Program-made: the position numbers and the translations under genes
Source of the DNA: a virus
Virus record (IMG/VR): IMGVR_UViG_3300049846_002522
Location: 1 to 37,261 of that record
Length of the DNA stretch: 37,261 bases
Strand: one strand, 5' to 3'
The notes under the pieces: model-generated
Databases searched by the model: none
Told to the model about the DNA's origin: nothing
Seen by the model: the letters and a program-made list of their open reading frames with translations, nothing else
Part shown: in pieces, positions 650 to 25,912 of the stretch
Numbering within the stretch: position 1 is the stretch's first letter
How the letters are laid out: each line of letters begins with the position of its first letter

Positions 650-1693
650 TTGATCCAGCTGATACGCCCGGTTTTTCCGCGAATTGAATTGATAAACGAA
701 TATCTATCGGTGTGCTATAAATCCGGAGTTTGGAGTAATTTCGGTGCACTGCATGATATTGCTGTTGAGAAAATAAGGGAAGTAACCGGTAAATTTCCCG
801 TTCTCGTAAATTCAGGAACAGCTGGCATATCTCTTGCTCTTGGTTATGAACGCGATGAAAAGGTCGTTGCAATTCCGGACTATACGCATGCAGGAAGTTA
901 CGTGGGATCTGCCAAAACAGGCAGGGAAATCTGCATAATTTCATGCAATGAAAAGACGATGTCGATGGATCTCGACGCTTTCGAGATGGTTTGTAGAAAC
1001 GGGCTCGCTCATTGTGCCGTTATCGTTAATCCGTTCGGGTATGGGATCGATCGGGAAAGTTATAACTCGATAGCCCGTCGATATGGTGTTTCGCTAGTGT
1101 ACGACTATGCGGGAGCATGGGGAGATTTCAATCATGACGATGAATTTCCGACGGTATATTCCTTTCATGCTACGAAATCAATGCCGATAGGGGAGGGAGG
1201 CGTTGTTCTCTTCAGAGAAAAAGAACATGCAGACAAAGCCAGGAAGTTATCGAATTTTAGCACGAATCCCGATCGTACCATTGCTAATGATCGTGGTGAT
1301 AATCTTAAGCTCAGTGAAGTTTCATGCGCGGTACTCTGCTCTCAACTCGACGGCCGAAATTATCAATCTGTTCTTAATCGGATTCATAATCGGCAGGATC
1401 TTACGCGATTTTACGGAATGAGACTTCGTGCACGTCACAGAATAACAGCGTCTCCATCCCTGTGCGTTTTCGATTTTCACGAATTTGATCCGGCATATTT
1501 TGAGAGAAAGGCTCTTGAATCAGGTTTCGTCGCGAAACAGTATTATATTCCGCTATCCAAAATGCCCGCATATCGCGACGTAAGAAGATATGGCACGAAA
1601 TTACGCGGGATCCTGGATCGGATGATAGCCCTTCCGTCGGACGTTTCTTTCGATGAGGCAAAGAAAATCGTCAAGGCTATCGATACATTTTAG
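650..1693 (+). CDS. DegT/DnrJ/EryC1-type PLP-dependent sugar aminotransferase
   Basis: This 347-residue protein has the layout of aspartate-aminotransferase-fold sugar aminotransferases. The cofactor-binding VNSGTAGISLAL is near residue 53 and the pyridine-nitrogen Asp is in YDYAG (about residue 152). The presumed PLP lysine is Lys176 in HATKSMPIGEGG. The family usually makes amino sugars by transaminating a nucleotide keto-sugar. The start is TTG at 650, chosen because AAGGA (639-643) lies 6 nt upstream. The gene faces an acetyltransferase gene with overlapping stop codons, and aminotransferase plus acetyltransferase is a usual pair for N-acyl amino-sugar synthesis. I infer that it modifies a surface or virion glycan; the substrate is unknown. 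Confidence 0.8.
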   Translation: MIQLIRPVFPRIELINEYLSVCYKSGVWSNFGALHDIAVEKIREVTGKFPVLVNSGTAGISLALGYERDEKVVAIPDYTHAGSYVGSAKTGREICIISCNEKTMSMDLDAFEMVCRNGLAHCAVIVNPFGYGIDRESYNSIARRYGVSLVYDYAGAWGDFNHDDEFPTVYSFHATKSMPIGEGGVVLFREKEHADKARKLSNFSTNPDRTIANDRGDNLKLSEVSCAVLCSQLDGRNYQSVLNRIHNRQDLTRFYGMRLRARHRITASPSLCVFDFHEFDPAYFERKALESGFVAKQYYIPLSKMPAYRDVRRYGTKLRGILDRMIALPSDVSFDEAKKIVKAIDTF

Positions 1694-2274
1694 ACGGGGG
1701 CGCCTGATTGCTCGAATAGTTCTCGTGAGCGTTTGGATAGTTCGATCATTTCTGATTGCCGAGTTTTTAGAAACATTGGAGGATTTCCGACCCATATCGA
1801 CCAAGGGGACAACTGTTTAAACTTCGGCACGACGCCACCGGCTCCGAGCACGGCGCCCTGATGCAGCATACTTCCCGGCAGCATTATCGCGTTGGCGCCA
1901 ATCCATGAATAGTCGGACATATATATTGGCGCCGCCGTGACGTTCGTAAACTGCTCCGGATGATTCGGACCCACGAGATAATTTCCCGATGCATCGTCGC
2001 TTGCTGAAATCAATTTGCATCCCATCGATATCGACGTGAAGTTTCCGAGAGTAATCCCGCCGCCGCATGAAATCATGCATTGAGAGGCAATATGAACGTG
2101 ATCATGAATCGTTAAATATCCCTTCGCAGCCAATATAAGCGTTTGAGCATCGATACGGACGTTGTCGCCGATTTCGATATTTTCTTCGCCGAATATGAGT
2201 GCGTGTCGACTGATTAGAACCTTGCGTCCTACCTTTTTAAATTTCGATAGCTCGTGTTCACTTAGCCATGCCAT
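1690..2274 (-). CDS. Left-handed beta-helix (hexapeptide) O/N-acetyltransferase
   Basis: This protein of 194 residues is built of imperfect hexapeptide repeats, for example IGDNVRIDAQTLI, IHDHVHIASQCMI and LGNFTSISMGCKL. It ends with the WVGNPPMFLK segment seen in WbbJ/CysE-like acetyltransferases, where VGNPA-type motifs are standard. Such enzymes transfer an acyl group from acyl-CoA to a sugar and act as trimers. It converges on the aminotransferase gene, with stop codons overlapping at 1690-1693 and no terminator between them. Its start is divergent from the following membrane-protein gene. The Shine-Dalgarno candidate AAAGG is rather far upstream (about 13 nt), so the start is less certain than the family. 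Acetylation of an amino sugar is inferred from the neighbour. Confidence 0.78.
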   Translation of the reverse strand: MAWLSEHELSKFKKVGRKVLISRHALIFGEENIEIGDNVRIDAQTLILAAKGYLTIHDHVHIASQCMISCGGGITLGNFTSISMGCKLISASDDASGNYLVGPNHPEQFTNVTAAPIYMSDYSWIGANAIMLPGSMLHQGAVLGAGGVVPKFKQLSPWSIWVGNPPMFLKTRQSEMIELSKRSRELFEQSGAPV

Positions 2275-2318
2275 ACTGCGATTGCGCCTTTCACAAAAAT
2301 TTTAGGGAGAGCAGCCAT

Positions 2319-2711
2319 ATGATGCGTGCGATCGTATTATTGATTTCATTATGCCCAACTTTCCTGTGTGCAGCGATCGACAATCAACAGCCAAGTGGCG
2401 CGGACTGGCTGACATTTGTAATGAGTCTGAAAGGGGCCGCGGGACTTGGAGCACTTGGAATGGCCGGCGCGGCTGTTCAGGGTCTGCTGCTGATTTTCAG
2501 GAGTGATTTTGTGAAACTTTCAGGCGCCAAAAAACTGGCCATCGTACAGAGTCTGTCGATTGTGTTCGGTGTTTTATCGCTACGGCTGAACGGTTTTGAC
2601 TGGGCTTCGAGCTTTCTGCATGCGAATACGCTCGGTGCTATCCAAGTTTTCGGCAATCAATTGCTGAAGCAATTTGGCGGCAAAACGCCGGAAAGCGAGA
2701 AAGCGGCATGA
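2319..2711 (+). CDS. Small membrane protein, holin candidate
   Basis: The start is ATG 2319, 8 nt after AGGGAGA. The protein has 130 residues. It opens with a short hydrophobic segment resembling a signal peptide (MMRAIVLLISLCPTFLCAAI). Two further hydrophobic stretches follow, around GLGALGMAGAAVQGLLLIF and AIVQSLSIVFGVLSL, separated by a Lys-containing loop, and the C-terminal tail is charged. Size, two or three membrane segments and position beside the tail fibre gene fit a holin, but the family is not recognised and the muralytic enzymes lie 9 kb away. The ATG of the next gene overlaps its stop codon (ATGA), suggesting translational coupling. Confidence 0.6.
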   Translation: MMRAIVLLISLCPTFLCAAIDNQQPSGADWLTFVMSLKGAAGLGALGMAGAAVQGLLLIFRSDFVKLSGAKKLAIVQSLSIVFGVLSLRLNGFDWASSFLHANTLGAIQVFGNQLLKQFGGKTPESEKAA

Positions 2712-3493
2712 CGGTATATGCGATCACGCTCGCATTTTGTAATCCCGAGATCATCAGTCGATCGATTGCACAGTTCTATGCGACAAAAAATCCATCACTG
2801 GAAATTGAAAAACACATGATCGTCGATCAGCACTATCCGCTGGATTACCCATCTGTGAAGAAAAAACTCCATGAGCTTGAGAAAAATTACCCAGTCATTG
2901 TGGTTGATCCAGGCAAGAACCTTGGTCTTCACGGCGGTTTCAATTGGGCTCTGACCCAGCTCAAGCCTGGTCCTGACGACATCATTATCGGGTATGACGG
3001 CGATAGTTATCCGATCAGCTCCGGGTGGGATATGGCCCTCACGCGCGCGATTTTGAGCCCCAGGAGTGACGGTCACGGCCAGGTGGTATGGTCAACGCTG
3101 GGCAACACCCGATCGATCTCAGACGCTCGATTGCGCGGCTACGATCGCGTCATGGCGGACGGATTTATTGAACTGATGCTCGTGCATGCAGCGGTGACAA
3201 ATTCGATTTGTGCCTGGCGTTATGACTGGCTTGAGTCGGTCGGGTTTCTTGATGAACCGCTCGACTTCTATGGACATCTCGAAACGTGCATGTGGCAGAA
3301 GCTTCAAAAAGGAAAACGCTGGGCAGTCCTGACGCAGTGGATGGAGTCGGACGAGCTTCGCGATCTGCACGATCGTCAATACGTTGCCTACAAGTGGTTT
3401 TATGCCCACGATAAAACATGGACGGGTGATTTAGCCTCGTATATCGAGGCAGGATGCCCCGATCTCGCTAAAAGCCCGCCGAGAATACCTTGA
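2708..3493 (+). CDS. GT-A-fold (family 2-like) glycosyltransferase
   Basis: The 261-residue protein starts at the ATGA overlap with the membrane-protein gene. The N-terminal MTVYAITLAFCNPEI strand, the GKNLGLHGGFNWAL segment (about residue 75) and the IIGYDGDSYP acidic motif (about residue 97) match the nucleotide-sugar and metal site of GT-A enzymes; DGDS replaces the usual DxD. The C-terminal half has many aromatic residues and no clear membrane span, so the enzyme is probably cytoplasmic. The context of aminotransferase and acetyltransferase genes suggests decoration of a polysaccharide, virion protein or DNA base. The acceptor cannot be read from the sequence. Confidence 0.72.
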   Translation: MTVYAITLAFCNPEIISRSIAQFYATKNPSLEIEKHMIVDQHYPLDYPSVKKKLHELEKNYPVIVVDPGKNLGLHGGFNWALTQLKPGPDDIIIGYDGDSYPISSGWDMALTRAILSPRSDGHGQVVWSTLGNTRSISDARLRGYDRVMADGFIELMLVHAAVTNSICAWRYDWLESVGFLDEPLDFYGHLETCMWQKLQKGKRWAVLTQWMESDELRDLHDRQYVAYKWFYAHDKTWTGDLASYIEAGCPDLAKSPPRIP

Positions 3494-3680
3494 TCAGATC
3501 GTCTTCAGTCAGAAGCTCATCGACGGACAGGCAGGGAACGATAATCGTTTGAATATCGATTCCCTGTGCATTCAGGTCTTTCGCCCGAGCCTCGAGGGAT
3601 CTCAGACGTGTAAAACTATCGCTTTTTACGATGACGGGATCCATGTTAGAACGCTTCAAGATTAAACATATTTCATTCAC
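3468..3680 (-). CDS. Small unknown protein (70 aa)
   Basis: GTG start at 3680 with AGGAGAG 9 nt upstream on the minus strand, a convincing ribosome-binding site. The protein MNEICLILKRSNMDPVIVKS... is mixed alpha/beta with a C-terminal DELLTEDDLIKVFSAGF segment. No family is recognised. Its 3' end overlaps the end of the convergent glycosyltransferase gene by 26 bp. It is the only minus-strand gene between two + operons and starts next to the 3684 gene in divergent orientation, so the short shared space may hold both promoters. Confidence 0.55.
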   Translation of the reverse strand: MNEICLILKRSNMDPVIVKSDSFTRLRSLEARAKDLNAQGIDIQTIIVPCLSVDELLTEDDLIKVFSAGF

Positions 3681-3683
3681 AGT

Positions 3684-4241
3684 TTGACTCTCCTGTTTTG
3701 GTGTTCCTTGAAGGTTAGTAATAACAACGTAAAATCAGATCATGTCAAGGTATCACTTACAATCATCGAATCAGACGCATTTAAAAAGTACCTTGCCCTG
3801 AGCCGCGATAGCTATCCGATGGGACTCGGACGACTCGTTGCGCTGTGTCTTCAGGTCCTGCATCTTGATCGATATTATTTCAGTCGTTTCGAAATGGATC
3901 GACTCGTTCAGTGGCCGGCGGATCGAAATCTTGGCTTCGGCGAAGTTCTTGAAGCAATTGGCTGGGCAGAACAACGGCCGAATAGCAGGACTCTTCTTGA
4001 GCTTACATTGCCCGGTGATATTCTACCGCGCAGACCGCTCAAGCGAAGGGCCGCGTTTCGGGCCGTCCGTCTACGAGGCGACGACGGTCAATTCGTCAGC
4101 CGATCTGAAGTCGAAAATCTCGTCTATCGTGATCGTCCTGTAATATTGTTAGACGTGGACGGACGCCGGGCTGTTGATTTAAATTCGTTCTCGACACCGG
4201 AAAAAAAGTCCAATTATAAACGCAGGAAAAAAAATGAATGA
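3684..4241 (+). CDS. Unknown protein, first gene of the ParB/TAGT operon
   Basis: The open frame runs to a stop at 4241 that overlaps the next gene's ATG (4234). The N-terminus is uncertain. TTG 3684 is the first possible start, but it lacks a good ribosome-binding site and a TTG at 3708 is equally possible. The central part (YPMGLGRLVALCLQVLHLDR, then helix-rich sequence) could be a small winged-helix or RHH-like domain. The C-terminal tail is strongly basic (KKSNYKRRKKNE), suggesting nucleic-acid contact. No family is recognised. Tight coupling to the ParB-like gene suggests a shared role. Confidence 0.6.
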   Translation: MTLLFWCSLKVSNNNVKSDHVKVSLTIIESDAFKKYLALSRDSYPMGLGRLVALCLQVLHLDRYYFSRFEMDRLVQWPADRNLGFGEVLEAIGWAEQRPNSRTLLELTLPGDILPRRPLKRRAAFRAVRLRGDDGQFVSRSEVENLVYRDRPVILLDVDGRRAVDLNSFSTPEKKSNYKRRKKNE

Positions 4242-5034
4242 AGCCGAACCGGCCGAACTCGGATTGATTCGAAACGCCACAATTCGTTGCGCACACGCCG
4301 CACAAGTAGATCCGAAGTTTTTAAAGCCTCACCCTCTTAATCCGAACAAACATCCTCCAAAGCAAATCGAGATGTTTATAACGATCCTTGGATACCAGGG
4401 ATGGCGACGGCCGATCACCGTCTCTAAACGCTCCGGCTATATCACAAAAGGCCACGGAGCGTGGGAAGCGGCTATGTCGGCGGGTTTTAATATCGTGCCG
4501 GTTGACTATCAAGACTATGAAGACGAGGCTCAGGAACTCGCGGACATCGTCGCCGATAACCAGCTTCAGCGTATGAGCGAGATGGACACCGGGAGGCTGG
4601 CAGAGCTTTTCGTTCAGCTCGATACGGGATCTTTCAATTTCGAACTGACTGGCTTTGAATCGATGAAGGTCGAATCCATGCTCTCGGCCCTTCCAGGCTA
4701 TCGGAACGAGCCGGACGCTGGACTTGCTGTCGATTACAATGATGAGGAGATAGACCATCCCGAACAGTCTCCAGTGCAGCAGCAGTCACAATTTGCAGAA
4801 TCCACTATTCAATCTGGAGGTCCGGCCGTCGATCAGCCGCATGCCGAAGGATTGCCAGCGCCCCAGCCCGTGACGCAAAGTCACGTCCGCATGATTCAGC
4901 TGTTTTTCAACGAGCAGACCGTGTCGGAATTTATGACGATGGTCGAACATTTCCAGCGAAAACTGGAAATCGATAACGTCACAGATACCGTCTTAGCCGT
5001 CTTACGCAGCAACTATTCAACCGACGTCGTATGA
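4234..5034 (+). CDS. ParB/Srx-fold protein, copy 1
   Basis: The first 130 residues are a ParB/sulfiredoxin-type domain: LKPHPLNPNKHP, then GYQGWRRPITVS, then GYITKGHGAWEAAMSAG, which occupies the position of the GxxR nucleotide-binding motif of ParB. This is followed by VPVDYQDYEDEAQELADIVADNQ. In phages such single-domain ParB-like proteins often sit in DNA-modification or methyltransferase clusters and need not act in plasmid partition. The C-terminal 130 residues are Gln/Pro-rich and end in a small alpha/beta domain (RMIQLFFNEQTVSEFMTMVE). AGGA lies about 8 nt before ATG 4234. A diverged paralog lies at 5341-6081. Confidence 0.82.
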   Translation: MNEAEPAELGLIRNATIRCAHAAQVDPKFLKPHPLNPNKHPPKQIEMFITILGYQGWRRPITVSKRSGYITKGHGAWEAAMSAGFNIVPVDYQDYEDEAQELADIVADNQLQRMSEMDTGRLAELFVQLDTGSFNFELTGFESMKVESMLSALPGYRNEPDAGLAVDYNDEEIDHPEQSPVQQQSQFAESTIQSGGPAVDQPHAEGLPAPQPVTQSHVRMIQLFFNEQTVSEFMTMVEHFQRKLEIDNVTDTVLAVLRSNYSTDVV

Positions 5035-5048
5035 AAAGGAAGACAACG

Positions 5049-5339
5049 ATGCAAGATGAAACACTGGAAAAATCAGCAGAACAGGCAGAATTCGCAGACG
5101 ATCTTCAGATGGAAGCCGAACAAGAACAAGATGAAAAGAAAAAACGCCCTGCTGTTTGGCTGGCTGTTCTATCCAGCATCAGAAGCGAGGTCTCTTTCTT
5201 AAAAGCTACATCTCTCAAAGAACTTCATGAAGCCATCAAACATCTCGATCTTGGTACAGAAGTCTCTGAACTCTATCGAGCGGTGCCAAAGCAGTTTCAA
5301 GTCAAGACGACTGTGACCAAGAAGTTGGAGATTGTCTGA
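5049..5339 (+). CDS. Small acidic/coiled-coil protein between the ParB paralogs
   Basis: ATG 5049 is preferred because AAGGA at 5036-5040 is well placed. An in-frame ATG at 5031 overlaps the previous stop but has no ribosome-binding site. The 96-residue product has a Glu/Gln-rich N-terminus (EQAEFADDLQMEAEQEQDEK) followed by an amphipathic helical segment (KATSLKELHEAIKHLDLG) and a basic end. No family is recognised. Position between two homologous ParB-like genes suggests an adaptor or partner of those proteins. Confidence 0.6.
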   Translation: MQDETLEKSAEQAEFADDLQMEAEQEQDEKKKRPAVWLAVLSSIRSEVSFLKATSLKELHEAIKHLDLGTEVSELYRAVPKQFQVKTTVTKKLEIV

Positions 5340-5340
5340 A

Positions 5341-6081
5341 ATGGAAATCCGTTGCGCTTATCGTGAATTGCTGAATCCAAAGACGCTGAAACCTCACCCT
5401 GCCAATCCAAATGAGCATGGGCAGGACCAGATTGATCTATTTGTCGAAATCCTGAAATACCAGGGCTGGCGTAGACCGATCACGGTGTCGATCAGATCTG
5501 GATATATCACGAAAGGCCACGGAGCCCTTGCTGCAGCAATCGCAGCCGGCTGCGATCTTGTGCCGGTTGATTATCAGGATTACAAAGACGAAGCCCAGGA
5601 GCTGGCTGATATTGTGGCCGATAATCAGCTGCAACGCATGTCGAAGATGAACATGGGCAAACTTCAGCAGATCGTAACGAGTCTCGATACTGTATCGGTT
5701 GATCTTTCAATGACTGGACTCGATAGCATACAGCTTCAGTCCCTTCGTCTCGTTACGAATCCCCTGCCACCTCCGCCTCCTCCCGAAGCACTTTTAAGGG
5801 ACTCGCGGTATGCGAATCCCGTCGATCCGGCGCCACCTGAGCCAGAATCGACATCGGATGCAGAATACGTAAATCAACACTACCAGGGCATGCCTGAATT
5901 CAATCAGCAGGATCTCTCACCGAAACGCCAGATCACGGTGAATTTTGCGTCGGAGCAGGACTTTCAGGAATTCTTCAACGTGATCGGCCAACGGACAACC
6001 AATCACCGTTCGATCTGGTTTCCGGAACAGCCGATAGAAAAGGCTGTTGATAAACGATATACATCGAATTCTGGTGAATAG
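5341..6081 (+). CDS. ParB/Srx-fold protein, copy 2
   Basis: Start at ATG 5341, 10 nt after GGAG; the TTG at 5332 is too close to the ribosome-binding site. The N-terminal domain parallels copy 1 almost motif for motif: LKPHPANPNEHG, YQGWRRPITVS, GYITKGHGALAAAIAAG, VPVDYQDYKDEAQELADIVA, DNQLQRMS. The linker is Pro-rich (LPPPPPPEALL) and differs completely from copy 1. The C-terminal segment RQITVNFASEQDFQEFFNVIG resembles the C-terminal segment of copy 1, so the two proteins share both ends. Tandem duplication followed by divergence is the simple explanation. Confidence 0.82.
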   Translation: MEIRCAYRELLNPKTLKPHPANPNEHGQDQIDLFVEILKYQGWRRPITVSIRSGYITKGHGALAAAIAAGCDLVPVDYQDYKDEAQELADIVADNQLQRMSKMNMGKLQQIVTSLDTVSVDLSMTGLDSIQLQSLRLVTNPLPPPPPPEALLRDSRYANPVDPAPPEPESTSDAEYVNQHYQGMPEFNQQDLSPKRQITVNFASEQDFQEFFNVIGQRTTNHRSIWFPEQPIEKAVDKRYTSNSGE

Positions 6082-15953: not shown

Positions 15954-16865
15954 ATGAGCGGTCAAATCGTAAAGTCAGGAAACGCAAGGCCAGCCCAGGC
16001 CCAAGGCGGCATGACAGCCATCGCTTCGATTGAGGATCTTAGGGCGCAGGCTGATGAAATCAAAATGGTGGCTGATATATTCGGCATCGAAGGCGATCAG
16101 CTGCGTCATCTGAAGGTCGCCTTCTTCTATGCCGGCGTCGGCAATGGGTTGGTGCCCGACGTCTTCAAGGGCGACTATCGATCGATGTTTATCATGAGCC
16201 AGATTTCCGATCAGATGAAGCTGCCGCTCAGCGAAGTTCTACAGGGCTGCTATTTCGTGCACGGACGTCTGGGCTGGTATGCCGAATGGATGATCAAACG
16301 CATTTTGGCTCTTGGGATATTCACGGCATTCGACTATGAAGTCGGCGGCGACCTGAAGGACGAAACCCTTTGGTGTCGGGCGGTCGGAACGAGGCCGGAT
16401 GGCACGAAGGCCATAGGCACAGTCGTCTCGCTGAAGATGGCCAGGGCCGAAGGCTGGTTTGATAAAAAGGGCAGCAAGTGGCTGACGATGCCAGCTTACA
16501 TGCTGAAAAAGCGGGCAGCAACTTTTCTGATTCGCGAGTGTGCCCCCCATATTTTCGGAAACAATACACTCACGGCTGAGGAAGCCGAGGAAATTGAGCC
16601 GGCCACGCCCGACAAGCCCCAGCTGATCGAAACGAAGGTGAATGCTGCCACTACTATGGCGATGATAATTGCCGACGAAGAGAAAAAGAATGAAGAGCAG
16701 CAGCGCCTGGATCTGCTCGATCGTGTGGAGAAAAAGATTGCCTCGAAGATCCAGGGCGGAGTAAATCCAGTCGATATTGAAAATAGCATGGGCATGGCTC
16801 TTGGATCAGTGCCCGAGCTTAATATCGAGCAGCTCATGGCTGTATGGGAGATGATAAGTCGGTAA
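15954..16865 (+). CDS. RecT/Bet-like single-strand annealing protein
   Basis: The 303-residue protein contains MSQISDQMKLPLSEVLQGCYFV and GRLGWYAEWMIKRILALGIF, then CRAVGTRPDGTKAIGTVVSL, ARAEGWFDKKGSKWLTMPAY and MLKKRAATFLIRECAPHIFG. This is the order seen in RecT/Redbeta-superfamily proteins: a helical start, the G-x-Y-x-x-x-G-R turn, a beta sheet with RPDG, and the W-x-x-x-P-x-x-M-L-x-x-R-A motif. It anneals complementary single strands during phage recombination and replication. Its usual exonuclease partner is not seen in the window. The C-terminal 80 residues form a charged coiled coil. It starts 3 nt after the Gp157-like gene. Confidence 0.8.
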   Translation: MSGQIVKSGNARPAQAQGGMTAIASIEDLRAQADEIKMVADIFGIEGDQLRHLKVAFFYAGVGNGLVPDVFKGDYRSMFIMSQISDQMKLPLSEVLQGCYFVHGRLGWYAEWMIKRILALGIFTAFDYEVGGDLKDETLWCRAVGTRPDGTKAIGTVVSLKMARAEGWFDKKGSKWLTMPAYMLKKRAATFLIRECAPHIFGNNTLTAEEAEEIEPATPDKPQLIETKVNAATTMAMIIADEEKKNEEQQRLDLLDRVEKKIASKIQGGVNPVDIENSMGMALGSVPELNIEQLMAVWEMISR

Positions 16866-22860: not shown

Positions 22861-23595
22861 GTGAGCGATGACGAAATGCCGTCACAGCATCATCTGCGAA
22901 TCGTGCGCGATGGGGACGACAATAATCATCGCTCGCCGAAGATTTCGCCAGAACAGGCAAAGTCCATGTTCATGGCCTCGCCGCACCTGGAGTGGTCAAC
23001 CTGGGCCAAATCTATGGGATGGCGAACATCCACGCCGAAATATCCGAATTTTTCAGACTGGCAAAGAGAAAAGCGCGACATACTAGCGCGGGATCAAGCC
23101 GAATCGATTTCCGAAGCTCTCTTCTCGCACCGAGGCCGCTGGCATGCCGACGTTCTCAAGACGCTGAAAGAATATCCTGAAGCCCCCGACGCGATGATGG
23201 GGATCTTCAAAAAGCGCATCAATGACATTATTCAGACGATAAACGAAGACGAAAGACATCGAGCCCTTGCAGCGCAAACAGGCGAACAGTTTGTTTCGAA
23301 TTTTGCGAAGATTGAAACGGCGGAACTCAGGAATATTGCGGCGGGTCTAAAGCTCGTTACCGAAGCAAAGCACAAGGCCCTGATGATTGACGGCTGGAAT
23401 ATCAAGGTCGCCGAATCATTCACTGATCCCGCGCAATTCGAAGCACCGAATCTTGAAAATCAGCAGTGGAAGGTGCAATTACTCGGAGGCCATGAAATCG
23501 ACGAAAACGGCATGAAACAGCTCATGAAGAGCTATTACGATGTTCCTGGCGTTGAAATTGGCGTAAACGGAAACGACGGATTGGAGACGACATGA
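22861..23595 (+). CDS. Terminase small subunit candidate
   Basis: GTG 22861 begins a 244-residue protein just before the terminase large subunit. Its N-terminal 100 residues have an HTH-like segment (WSTWAKSMGWRTSTPKYPNF). A helical centre follows (ILARDQAESISEALFSHRGR, NDIIQTINEDERHRALAAQT, LRNIAAGLKLVTEAKHKALM), then an acidic C-terminus. HTH plus helical oligomerisation region, length and position directly upstream of terL are typical of small terminases. No diagnostic motif exists for this family, so the assignment rests on position and architecture. Confidence 0.62.
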   Translation: MSDDEMPSQHHLRIVRDGDDNNHRSPKISPEQAKSMFMASPHLEWSTWAKSMGWRTSTPKYPNFSDWQREKRDILARDQAESISEALFSHRGRWHADVLKTLKEYPEAPDAMMGIFKKRINDIIQTINEDERHRALAAQTGEQFVSNFAKIETAELRNIAAGLKLVTEAKHKALMIDGWNIKVAESFTDPAQFEAPNLENQQWKVQLLGGHEIDENGMKQLMKSYYDVPGVEIGVNGNDGLETT

Positions 23596-23596
23596 C

Positions 23597-25912
23597 ATGC
23601 CGCTTGTTAGCGTTGCGCCGTGGCAAATGGCTGCGTTATATAATCCGTATATGCATTTTGCCATGTACGCTGGAGTGGCATGCGTAGCTGCAAATACCCT
23701 TATTGAGACGGCTCATGGTCCGTGCGAGATTTCCAAACTTCAAGAAAACGATCTGGTTGTTTCTGTAGGAAATCAAGGTCTAACCCTAGTTCATTGCGAA
23801 AAACCGTTCGTAAAAGGTCGAGCCCGGCTTCTCCGAATTGAGCACGAGCGAGGCTCGTTTGTTGCTCACGAGCGGCACCTGATTGCTTTAAAAGGCGGTA
23901 CGTATGAATATGCGGCTGATCTTTCCGTTGGAGACGTCCTGTGTTCATTTTTTTCCAACCGATCAGTGACCAGCGAGGTAATTGGCCGCACAGGGTTTGC
24001 TTCAAATGATCAGAGTTCTTTTCAAAAATTCTCAGATTCTTGGGTGAATTATTCTGTTTCAAACCGTCGATATGATCTATTACCTGATTCTTCGATAGAA
24101 CAATACCGTTCGAAAGTTCGTAAATCAGTCGATGGGAATAGATCATTCCTGTCTTTCTGCAGTTTGGATGCCATCGAGCAGCCATCAAAACATATCCGTC
24201 CTTGTCCACCGTTCCGCCGCCTTTATAAGCAGAATTCCGAGCCCCGTGCGGAGAGTTTCGAGGCAATCGAGGCAGATCCTCATGCAGTAAAACCTCCTGC
24301 ACAAATTTTGCCGAATATCCCGTCAATGCCGCTATTTCAGATGAAGAGCGAGTGCCGTCCGCTAGATCTCGAATGGGCTGGCGATCATGAACCCGTCTCT
24401 TCTCCCGGGCCTTACGCATGCAGTTACTCCTTATGCTACTCCAGGATAGTCTCTATCACGGTGTTGCAAGAGGAACAAGAATTCTGGGATGTGCATATAC
24501 CGGGAACCGAGAATTATCTGGCGGAGGGAGCAGTACACCATAACTGCGGAAAAACATACACTGGCGCTCAGTTTGCAGTCTTCAACTTCATAAATCATCC
24601 AGACAAGACCGGTTTAATCGCTTCGAATAATCATGATCAGCTATCACAGGCTACGCTCCGCGAGCTCTTCTACTGGCTGGATGCCTATGGCCTGGAATAC
24701 GTCGTCGACCGAATCCCGCCCGCGGCATGGGGTGTGCCGCGCAGATTTAAAACTTATCGCAACATTTTATCGGTCAGAAATCCACGAAATGGAAAAGTCG
24801 CGCACGCTTTCGTTCGAATTCTATCGGACGCGGATGCATTGCGCGGTATCGAGATCAGCTGGTACTGGCTCGACGAGACACGCGATACGCCCGAAGACAC
24901 GCACGACGTCGTTATTTCGCGTATGCGAGAAAGCGAATACAAAAAAGGGATTATCACGACGACGACAAACGGCGAAGATTGGTCATTTCGCCGGTTCGTT
25001 AAGGGAGCCCGACGGAATGATTTCCTCTATGGGTCGATGCATGTCAAAACAATCGAATCGGTGAAATTGCATATTATCGATCAGAGTTATTATGATTCAA
25101 TGGCTCGATCGTATTCTCCACTCAAAGCGGCACAGGAACTCGATGCACAGCATGTAAACCTTCTCGGCGGGCGCGCTTACTATACGGCGGGATCAGACAA
25201 CACGCGCTCGATTGCCCCGTGGGGCGACGCCGTTCCGAACCGGGAACGTCCTCTCATCGTAGGATGCGATTTTAACTTCAGTCCGGCCCCATGCATCTGG
25301 ATGATAGGTCAGATTGGGCCAAACGTGTTTGGGCCCAATGGCGAACACTTTGGATCGATGATTCACTGGTTCGGTGAGATCGCGGAGCCGGAAATGTCAT
25401 CCGCCGGAATGGCAATGATCCTCATCAACCGCTACCCCGAATTCTTTTACCGGGTCTTCGGAGACTGCTCGGGCGGAATCGGCACCACGTCAAATGCTGG
25501 CGTGACGGATTACGATCAGATAGCGTCAGTATTTCAGCAGGCGCGGGTGGGTTATTCGATCGACTATTTCCAAAGCGAAGAATCGCAAAATCCGAAGGTC
25601 AAGGCACGCGTTGAGAACATGAATCGTCTATTCAAAAACGCACTCGGGGAAGTAAGAATGACATATAACAAGGATTCTTGCCCCTATTTCCATGACGATA
25701 TCAAAATCGTAGGCTGGAAAACGACGACGCAGGGCGGTCGGGGAAAATTATCGGATGGCGGCGACCATCTGCGCACACATGCCACGGACGCCGCGGGCTA
25801 TGCCGTCTATAAGTTGCTGCCGCCGACAGCAAACTTTCGAGTTCACGAGTCCGTTCCATCTCCGATCCGTTCAGAGTATGGTTTATTTGATCAAAACCCG
25901 CAGCGATATTAA
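23597..25912 (+). CDS. terL: Terminase large subunit, interrupted by an intein
   Basis: The 771-residue precursor splits into a 28-residue N-extein, a 288-residue intein and a C-extein of 455 residues; the spliced product is about 483 residues, normal for TerL. Joining the exteins gives AGVA-CGKT, the Walker A P-loop, which is therefore broken by the intein. WYWLDE is the Walker B-like ATPase motif. VGCDFNFSPAPCIW, FGDCSGG and SDGGDHLRTHATDA are the acidic residues of the RNase H-like nuclease. The enzyme cuts concatemers and pumps DNA into the prohead. Function needs splicing, because the uncut protein has no P-loop. ATG 23597 has GGAG 10 nt upstream. Confidence 0.93.
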   Translation: MPLVSVAPWQMAALYNPYMHFAMYAGVACVAANTLIETAHGPCEISKLQENDLVVSVGNQGLTLVHCEKPFVKGRARLLRIEHERGSFVAHERHLIALKGGTYEYAADLSVGDVLCSFFSNRSVTSEVIGRTGFASNDQSSFQKFSDSWVNYSVSNRRYDLLPDSSIEQYRSKVRKSVDGNRSFLSFCSLDAIEQPSKHIRPCPPFRRLYKQNSEPRAESFEAIEADPHAVKPPAQILPNIPSMPLFQMKSECRPLDLEWAGDHEPVSSPGPYACSYSLCYSRIVSITVLQEEQEFWDVHIPGTENYLAEGAVHHNCGKTYTGAQFAVFNFINHPDKTGLIASNNHDQLSQATLRELFYWLDAYGLEYVVDRIPPAAWGVPRRFKTYRNILSVRNPRNGKVAHAFVRILSDADALRGIEISWYWLDETRDTPEDTHDVVISRMRESEYKKGIITTTTNGEDWSFRRFVKGARRNDFLYGSMHVKTIESVKLHIIDQSYYDSMARSYSPLKAAQELDAQHVNLLGGRAYYTAGSDNTRSIAPWGDAVPNRERPLIVGCDFNFSPAPCIWMIGQIGPNVFGPNGEHFGSMIHWFGEIAEPEMSSAGMAMILINRYPEFFYRVFGDCSGGIGTTSNAGVTDYDQIASVFQQARVGYSIDYFQSEESQNPKVKARVENMNRLFKNALGEVRMTYNKDSCPYFHDDIKIVGWKTTTQGGRGKLSDGGDHLRTHATDAAGYAVYKLLPPTANFRVHESVPSPIRSEYGLFDQNPQRY
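23681..24544 (+). other. Intein in the TerL P-loop
   Basis: The intein starts at Cys29 (TGC 23681) with CVAANTLIETAHGP, a standard block A. Block B is near GSFVAHERHLIALKGG, with HERH at the TxxH position. The C-terminal part has EFWDVHIPGTENYLAEG (block F) and AVHHN followed by Cys (block G), so the splice junctions have Cys+1, His-Asn and Cys, all required residues. Apart from about 155 residues between 23950 and 24419, it has mini-intein size. That middle part shows no LAGLIDADG or HNH signature in the + frame: it is the antisense of an HNH gene. Confidence 0.92.
23700..24419 (-). CDS. HNH homing endonuclease gene nested antisense in the intein
   Basis: The minus-strand frame starts at ATG 24419 with AAGGAG 7 nt upstream (24427-24432 on the + strand). 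The 239-residue product has an N-terminal helix-turn-helix (SSSEIAALTGYSAKFVQEVL) and an HNH domain: GGTVDKDGYVLMAARWHPNC, MIYSHRLIYELSNGIVLSKN, QVIDHIDGLKQNNSPKNLRI. These match the GYV...H...HR...HID..NN...NL pattern of phage homing HNH enzymes. About 80 C-terminal codons run antisense to intein blocks A and B and may be read-through only. The HNH core lies in the intein segment without splicing motifs. The minus frame is offset from the intein codons. Confidence 0.88.
   Translation of the reverse strand: MRKAREKRRVHDRQPIRDLADGTRSSSEIAALTGYSAKFVQEVLLHEDLPRLPRNSPHGARNSAYKGGGTVDKDGYVLMAARWHPNCRKTGMIYSHRLIYELSNGIVLSKNQVIDHIDGLKQNNSPKNLRIFEKNSDHLKQTLCGQLPRWSLIGWKKMNTGRLQRKDQPHIHTYRLLKQSGAAREQQTSLARAQFGEAGLDLLRTVFRNELGLDLDFLQKQPDRFLEVWKSRTDHEPSQ

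Follow-up and report, generated by a model that had tools for sequence, protein, structure and literature searches.

The large terminase gene (terL) of the phage DNA analysed here (IMG/VR record IMGVR_UViG_3300049846_002522, 37,261 nucleotides, hereafter the window) is interrupted by what is very probably a mobile intein with its homing endonuclease gene (HEG) on the opposite strand, an arrangement from which we infer splicing, cleavage, the target site, minus-strand transcription and timing. Comparative analysis of the sequences strongly supports a homing-type HNH gene lying antisense within a canonical intein, with both strands under selection; in the window, the endonuclease belongs to the minus strand and not to the reading frame of the splicing domain.

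Positions 15,954–36,535 of the window belong to a tailed phage with a tail sheath, based on PHROG matches to a RecT-like protein, glycosyltransferase, RusA, terL, portal, head maturation protease, major head protein and tail sheath. The gene preceding terL (22,861–23,595) had no PHROG match, and its position suggests that it encodes TerS.

The terL intein

The terL ORF (23,597–25,912, plus strand, 771 aa) is open throughout. It consists of a 28-residue N-extein (23,597–23,680) that ends ..MYAGVA within the Walker A motif, a 288-residue intein (23,681–24,544) supported by Pfam, AlphaFold and Foldseek, and a C-extein (24,545–25,912) that resumes with CGKTYTG. The intein begins with Cys1 at 23,681, continues through blocks A–B and a long middle, and closes with block F/G, ending HHN (..AEGAVHHN); block B carries an invariant His and the C-terminal sequence ..FWDVHIPGTENYLAEGAVHHN precedes the +1 Cys. 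All class 1 Hint intein motifs (Cys1, block-B His, C-terminal HN, +1 Cys/Ser/Thr) are therefore present. The sense strand matched Intein_splicing (Pfam, 2.1e-8), in agreement with the coordinates and splicing motifs of the original prediction, and the C-extein matched Terminase_6N (Pfam, 5.1e-8) and terminase large subunit (PHROG, 1.1e-19). In an alignment of 51 inteins, residues C1, T10, G13, H66, H286 and N288 were invariant. Parsed inteins retained C1, the block-B His and a C-terminal HN or EN, with C, S or T at the +1 position in every one. At block F, most of these inteins have Asn or Glu in place of the classical His; this counts somewhat against splicing, which would nevertheless be expected. 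On these motifs, 23,681–24,544 is classified as a canonical intein at the terL Walker A motif.

The AlphaFold model of the sense intein adopted a Hint fold, with pLDDT >90 at approximately residues 1–90 and 251–288 and mostly <60 at residues 96–248, and Foldseek retrieved mini-inteins (6frg, 4o1r and 2imz, at ∼1e-6), DnaB and RecA mini-inteins among them. The middle of the sense frame (23,951–24,419, ∼156 codons) is open, is not conserved as protein and is predicted to be mostly disordered, as seen in both pLDDT and the substitution patterns discussed below. No Pfam, PHROG or NCBIfam match to an endonuclease was found anywhere in the intein sense frame, the middle included, as had been claimed from the sequence; these absent matches, together with the disordered model, rule out a sense-frame endonuclease in the middle. 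Because it is disordered in the model, the middle is best read as a tolerated linker with no recognisable domain, and it appears to be constrained chiefly by the antisense HNH gene.

Comparison with empty alleles, which the original prediction had called for, located the insertion precisely. Three relatives (L118–L120), whose TerL proteins are 58–63% identical to the window C-extein, carry HFAFYAGIGA-GKTYTG / HFAMYGGVAVGKTYTG uninterrupted where the window reads HFAMYAGVA|intein|CGKTYTG. Since these alleles read through without an insert, the window insert is precise, in frame and inside Walker A.

The antisense HNH gene and its expression signals

The minus strand of the intein carries a 239-aa ORF (24,419–23,700) with an N-terminal HTH, an HNH_3 core and a C-terminal helical region. 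The ATG at 24,419, the HTH and the AAGGAG located 7 nt upstream were all present as predicted, the last as part of a TAAGGAG Shine-Dalgarno sequence (24,427–24,433). The ORF matched HNH_3 (Pfam, 2.4e-9) and PHROG 10730 (HNH endonuclease, phrog_10730), the latter across residues 16–209 with an E-value of 5.7e-34. Within the core (residues 94–136, 24,012–24,140; SHRLIYE..VIDHIDGLKQNN..NLRIF) the catalytic-type residues are intact, and H96, R97, H116, G119, N124, N128, N135 and H138 were invariant among 50 relatives. By profile and catalytic-type residues the product is an HNH homing endonuclease (HNH_3), which would be expected to cleave DNA. The AlphaFold model, built from an alignment of 50 family members (two rows from INPHARED records were left out of the HNH and intein alignments used for AlphaFold), had a pLDDT of 88.4 and showed HTH-like N-terminal helices, the HNH core and C-terminal helices. 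The helices at residues 173–233 were confidently modelled even though they are encoded opposite splicing blocks A–B. The closest PDB fold was I-HmuI (1u3e), a weak match (E 0.68), and a phmmer search against PDB yielded nothing except a repeat protein matching the HTH part.

Starts of the HNH gene are nearly constant across the family, falling mostly 122–149 nt inside the intein 3′ end. A Shine-Dalgarno sequence of at least 4 nt preceded the gene in 67/71 relatives compared with 18% of control start-like codons in the same frame, a contrast that is somewhat inflated because each HNH gene was scored at the best among its candidate starts. A sigma70-like site scoring at least 9/12 occurred at the expected place inside the intein in 51% of the family, versus 22% in sense-codon synonymous shuffles. 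Perfect sites (TTGACA-17-TATAAT, 12/12 with 17-nt spacing) were found in L069/L072, and sites of 11/12 in Pseudoalteromonas phage PHS3, L044 and L092. In the window itself no minus-strand promoter was recognisable, the best candidate scoring 8/12. The proposal that the endonuclease can be made independently of TerL thus fares well with respect to the Shine-Dalgarno sequence and to the promoter-like site in about half of the family, but less well for the promoter of the window. Taken across the family, the conserved Shine-Dalgarno sequences and promoter-like sites support expression of the endonuclease that would be uncoupled from TerL.

Family distribution and mobility

A search of IMG/VR with an alignment of the antisense protein recovered 219 relatives. 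In all of the best 80 of these, the minus-strand HNH was kept together with an opposite strand that was open across it in one phase (80/80), as the original prediction would have it for close relatives keeping the intein, while the remaining two opposite frames carried several stops. A search from the sense side arrived at the same relatives. When 158 distinct HNH domains were classified using profiles for the HNH and the two splicing halves, 151 lay opposite an open frame that matched splicing domains, almost always in one codon phase. This fraction does not describe HNH_3 at large, since the sampled domains are the closest relatives of a small number of related queries. A further five lay antisense to an open frame lacking a splicing-domain match, two (L160 and L181) were freestanding, and none of the 158 was encoded in sense within an intein. 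The freestanding copies are a possible source of the antisense genes or possible escapees. In total, more than 150 distinct relatives, mostly from phage-like contigs, showed the back-to-back arrangement. A long opposite ORF in phase 2 in L135, which is without a splicing motif, was treated as chance. Searches of plasmids gave partial HNH matches only, and a scan of genome contigs gave one distant, uninformative HNH (L115).

The inteins reside in several terminase families, a clamp-loader-like protein (L161; DNA_pol3_delta2/AAA) and an AAA_24 protein (L175), and 26/28 hosts matched Intein_splicing. A subgroup (L020–L022, L028–L030, L032, L038 and L039) has longer inteins (336 residues) and a longer HNH frame; the contig identifiers of this subgroup resemble isolate genomes, and its members are possible prophages. 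In another sequence, L127, the host protein (1120–4311, minus strand) also matches LAGLIDADG_3 farther downstream in its sense frame (residues 807–869), which suggests a second, conventional intein besides the one with the antisense HNH.

Among named phages in INPHARED, nine had a match to the antisense HNH: seven Pectobacterium phages, Dickeya phage Setonix and Pseudoalteromonas phage PHS3. The sense terL frame with its intein was open in 6/6 of the named phages whose DNA was examined. In every annotated phage examined, one of the two genes is missing or incomplete: PHS3 is annotated with the HNH plus a truncated TerL, and the Pectobacterium phages with one long ‘hypothetical protein’.

Several observations bear on mobility. 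Between L030 and L032 the inteins share 95% nucleotide identity while the TerL exteins share 74% protein identity. Third-position divergence in the exteins exceeded divergence in the intein C block in most of 21 pairs, although lower intein than extein divergence could result in part from dual-coding constraint rather than from recent homing. Decayed HEGs were found inside still-open inteins with intact splicing ends in L105, L106 and L107; L105 is without the HTH frame, and L106/L107 have an intein ∼100 codons shorter and an altered HNH. Empty alleles, greater likeness of inteins than of exteins and decayed HEGs make up the pattern expected of a homing cycle of gain, decay and loss, and offer indirect evidence for one.

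The antisense gene might instead be real but mainly regulatory, with its transcript or protein repressing or delaying terL and homing secondary or lost. Its overlap with terL, the promoter-like site of its own in many relatives and an N-terminal HTH that weakly resembles DNA-binding regulators would all suit such a role. We nevertheless consider it improbable, as the catalytic-type residues do not vary among 50 diverse relatives, decay strikes residues of the HTH and HNH but leaves the intein in place, and both the spread over unrelated P-loop genes and the excess similarity of the inteins fit homing.

Selection on both strands

Across the family the two genes overlap almost always in one codon phase, in which sense position s1 lies opposite antisense position a1, s2 opposite a3 and s3 opposite a2. 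The earlier description of the antisense gene as ‘non-register’ was therefore misleading. The wobble position of each gene thus falls on the second codon position in its partner, and the placement of substitutions separates the two genes. Between the window and its relative L002, the sense intein is 73% identical and the antisense HNH 89% identical. Substitution rates at s1/s2/s3 were 0.17/0.09/0.57 in the C-extein and 0.02/0.02/0.26 in the intein C block, as opposed to 0.14/0.39/0.04 in the HNH region (23,951–24,419), where 61 changes fell at s2/a3 and 6 at s3/a2. Hence substitutions accumulate at the sense wobble in the exteins and splicing blocks and at the antisense wobble in the middle.

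The same profile across 21 independent pairs identified intein codons 1–24 and 265–288 as sense-coding and codons 97–240 as antisense-coding. Codons 25–96 had low rates at both s2 (0.02–0.12) and s3 (0.07–0.11), and are considered dual-coded because they are depleted at both positions alike. By this measure of substitution rates, the C-terminal third of the HNH, whose helices on the minus strand overlie plus-strand intein blocks A–B (23,700–23,950), is dual-coded with these blocks. The antisense gene had been described as covering the central ∼155 codons of the intein; it does cover the middle, but it extends over the N-terminal splicing blocks A–B as well.

No sense stop was found over the HNH region in 75 distinct inteins (L047, whose intein start had been parsed wrongly, was excluded from the intein statistics). 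Shuffling of synonymous codons in the HNH gene gave an expectation of ∼5.2 sense stops per intein, with an open frame in 0.4% of shuffles; for the window, the same null gave 4.2 expected stops and an open frame in 0.25%. The simpler calculation made earlier from uniform base use, (61/64)^155 or ∼0.06%, was arithmetically right, and the proposal that selection keeps the intein frame open across the antisense gene is borne out by the absent stops and the codon-position data.

These data also bear on whether the antisense HNH could be the only functional element, with a non-splicing sense ‘intein’ and TerL either disrupted or made from its downstream part. The GenBank record of PHS3 (L008) could be taken in this way, as its HNH is placed at 4041–4751 and its TerL at 4844–6019, beginning only within the last intein codons; the terL frame that contains the intein is, however, open from ∼3893. 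Such a reading is highly unlikely given the complete lack of stops against 5.2 expected in each intein, the retention of C1, the block-B His, the C-terminal HN or EN and the +1 C/S/T in parsed inteins, a Hint fold modelled at pLDDT >90, and the fact that a TerL without the N-extein would miss half of Walker A. That the HNH reading is a chance open frame, a by-product of a conserved sense intein, is barely credible: a fixed codon phase can yield long mirror ORFs and the C-terminal third of the HNH does overlap conserved splicing blocks, but distant relatives are ∼18–25% identical in sense (whole intein) versus 30–44% in antisense, and the shift of substitutions to the antisense wobble, the conserved Shine-Dalgarno sequence (67/71) and the PHROG profile match refute it.

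Proposed homing pathway

Under the preferred reading of a mobile intein with an opposite-strand HEG, the plus strand would be expressed as a TerL precursor containing the intein. The Hint fold (an N part of ∼92 residues and a C part of ∼40) would then excise itself along with the long, mostly disordered linker, and splicing would join GVA to CGKTYTG. The minus strand would act as an independent gene with its own ribosome-binding site, driven in many relatives by a sigma70-like promoter inside the intein, and would produce the 239-aa HTH-HNH endonuclease. The predicted target of this enzyme is the stretch encoding Walker A in terL, or in other P-loop genes, where the intein is absent; repair of the cut allele would copy the intein in. 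With the endonuclease encoded by a gene of its own, homing would not have to await late TerL expression. More broadly, the family likely represents one class of mobile inteins that is both ancient and widespread. In this class, a self-contained antisense endonuclease gene would be phase-locked because its 3′ third is dual-coded with the splicing blocks, and the inteins would move among phage P-loop ATPase genes (terminase families, clamp loader, AAA) while separating homing from expression of the host protein.

Comparison with known systems

In canonical inteins, the splicing and endonuclease domains are made as one polypeptide. The inteins described here share with canonical mobile inteins (e.g. 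PI-SceI; HNH/LAGLIDADG) the Hint fold, the C1 and HN|C/S/T junctions, insertion at a conserved active-site motif, an endonuclease located between blocks B and F, and the decay cycle. They differ in that the endonuclease is a separate opposite-strand gene, outside the spliced polypeptide, with its own start, Shine-Dalgarno sequence and often a promoter-like site, and in that this gene overlaps the splicing-domain coding sequence. Dassa et al. in 2009 reportedly described ‘fractured genes’, in which the two halves of a split intein flank a free-standing endonuclease; there the endonuclease gene is likewise separate from the splicing polypeptide, whereas the inteins analysed here are contiguous and are overlapped by the endonuclease gene from the opposite strand. 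Gosselin et al. in 2025 are said to have reported non-canonical actinophage inteins.

I-HmuI (PDB 1u3e), from a group I intron of phage SPO1, is likewise an HNH nuclease with a DNA-binding HTH, but it is sense-encoded in an RNA intron, and its domain order and carrier differ from those of the antisense HNH. Nuclear group I introns provide known cases of antisense HEGs, including Dsq.L2066 / I-DsqI, Didymium Dir.S956-2 and Porphyra P1 extensions (PMC9548176, PMC2585584). These also lie opposite both the host gene and the splicing element, and separate transcription has been proposed for them (PMC9548176, PMC2585584); the opposite-strand placement is the same here, with a promoter-like site in about half of the family but no clear one in the window. 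The HEG of a group I intron, however, sits in a peripheral RNA loop, and the other strand need not stay open as protein, whereas here it must remain a translatable, partly dual-coded intein; the splicing chemistry, hosts and nuclease family (His-Cys in the introns, HNH_3 here) differ as well. In the ShiLan domain, an out-of-frame HNH lies in a phage methylase insertion, in the third frame with a GTG 18 bp in (PMC11855218). As in our case, an HNH is hidden in another frame of an open phage-gene insertion and was missed by annotation, but the ShiLan HNH shares a strand with the methylase gene, and its insertion yielded no splicing domain (PMC11855218), while here it is on the opposite strand and a splicing domain is present.

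A full-text literature search, covering no preprints and few subscription papers, found no intein with an antisense HEG, and as far as we could find this genetic arrangement has not been described for inteins. The original prediction that no reverse-orientation example is well described holds in this respect, although the window is one member of a widespread family. If the endonuclease is a separate antisense gene, the regulation of intein mobility changes, as the enzyme could be produced without, and before, the late protein that was invaded. Antisense HEGs may also explain some inteins that seemingly lack an endonuclease, and the overlap offers a natural case of antisense dual coding with selection measurable in both frames. 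The arrangement occurs in culturable phages, namely Pectobacterium phage Koroua and its relatives and Pseudoalteromonas phage PHS3.
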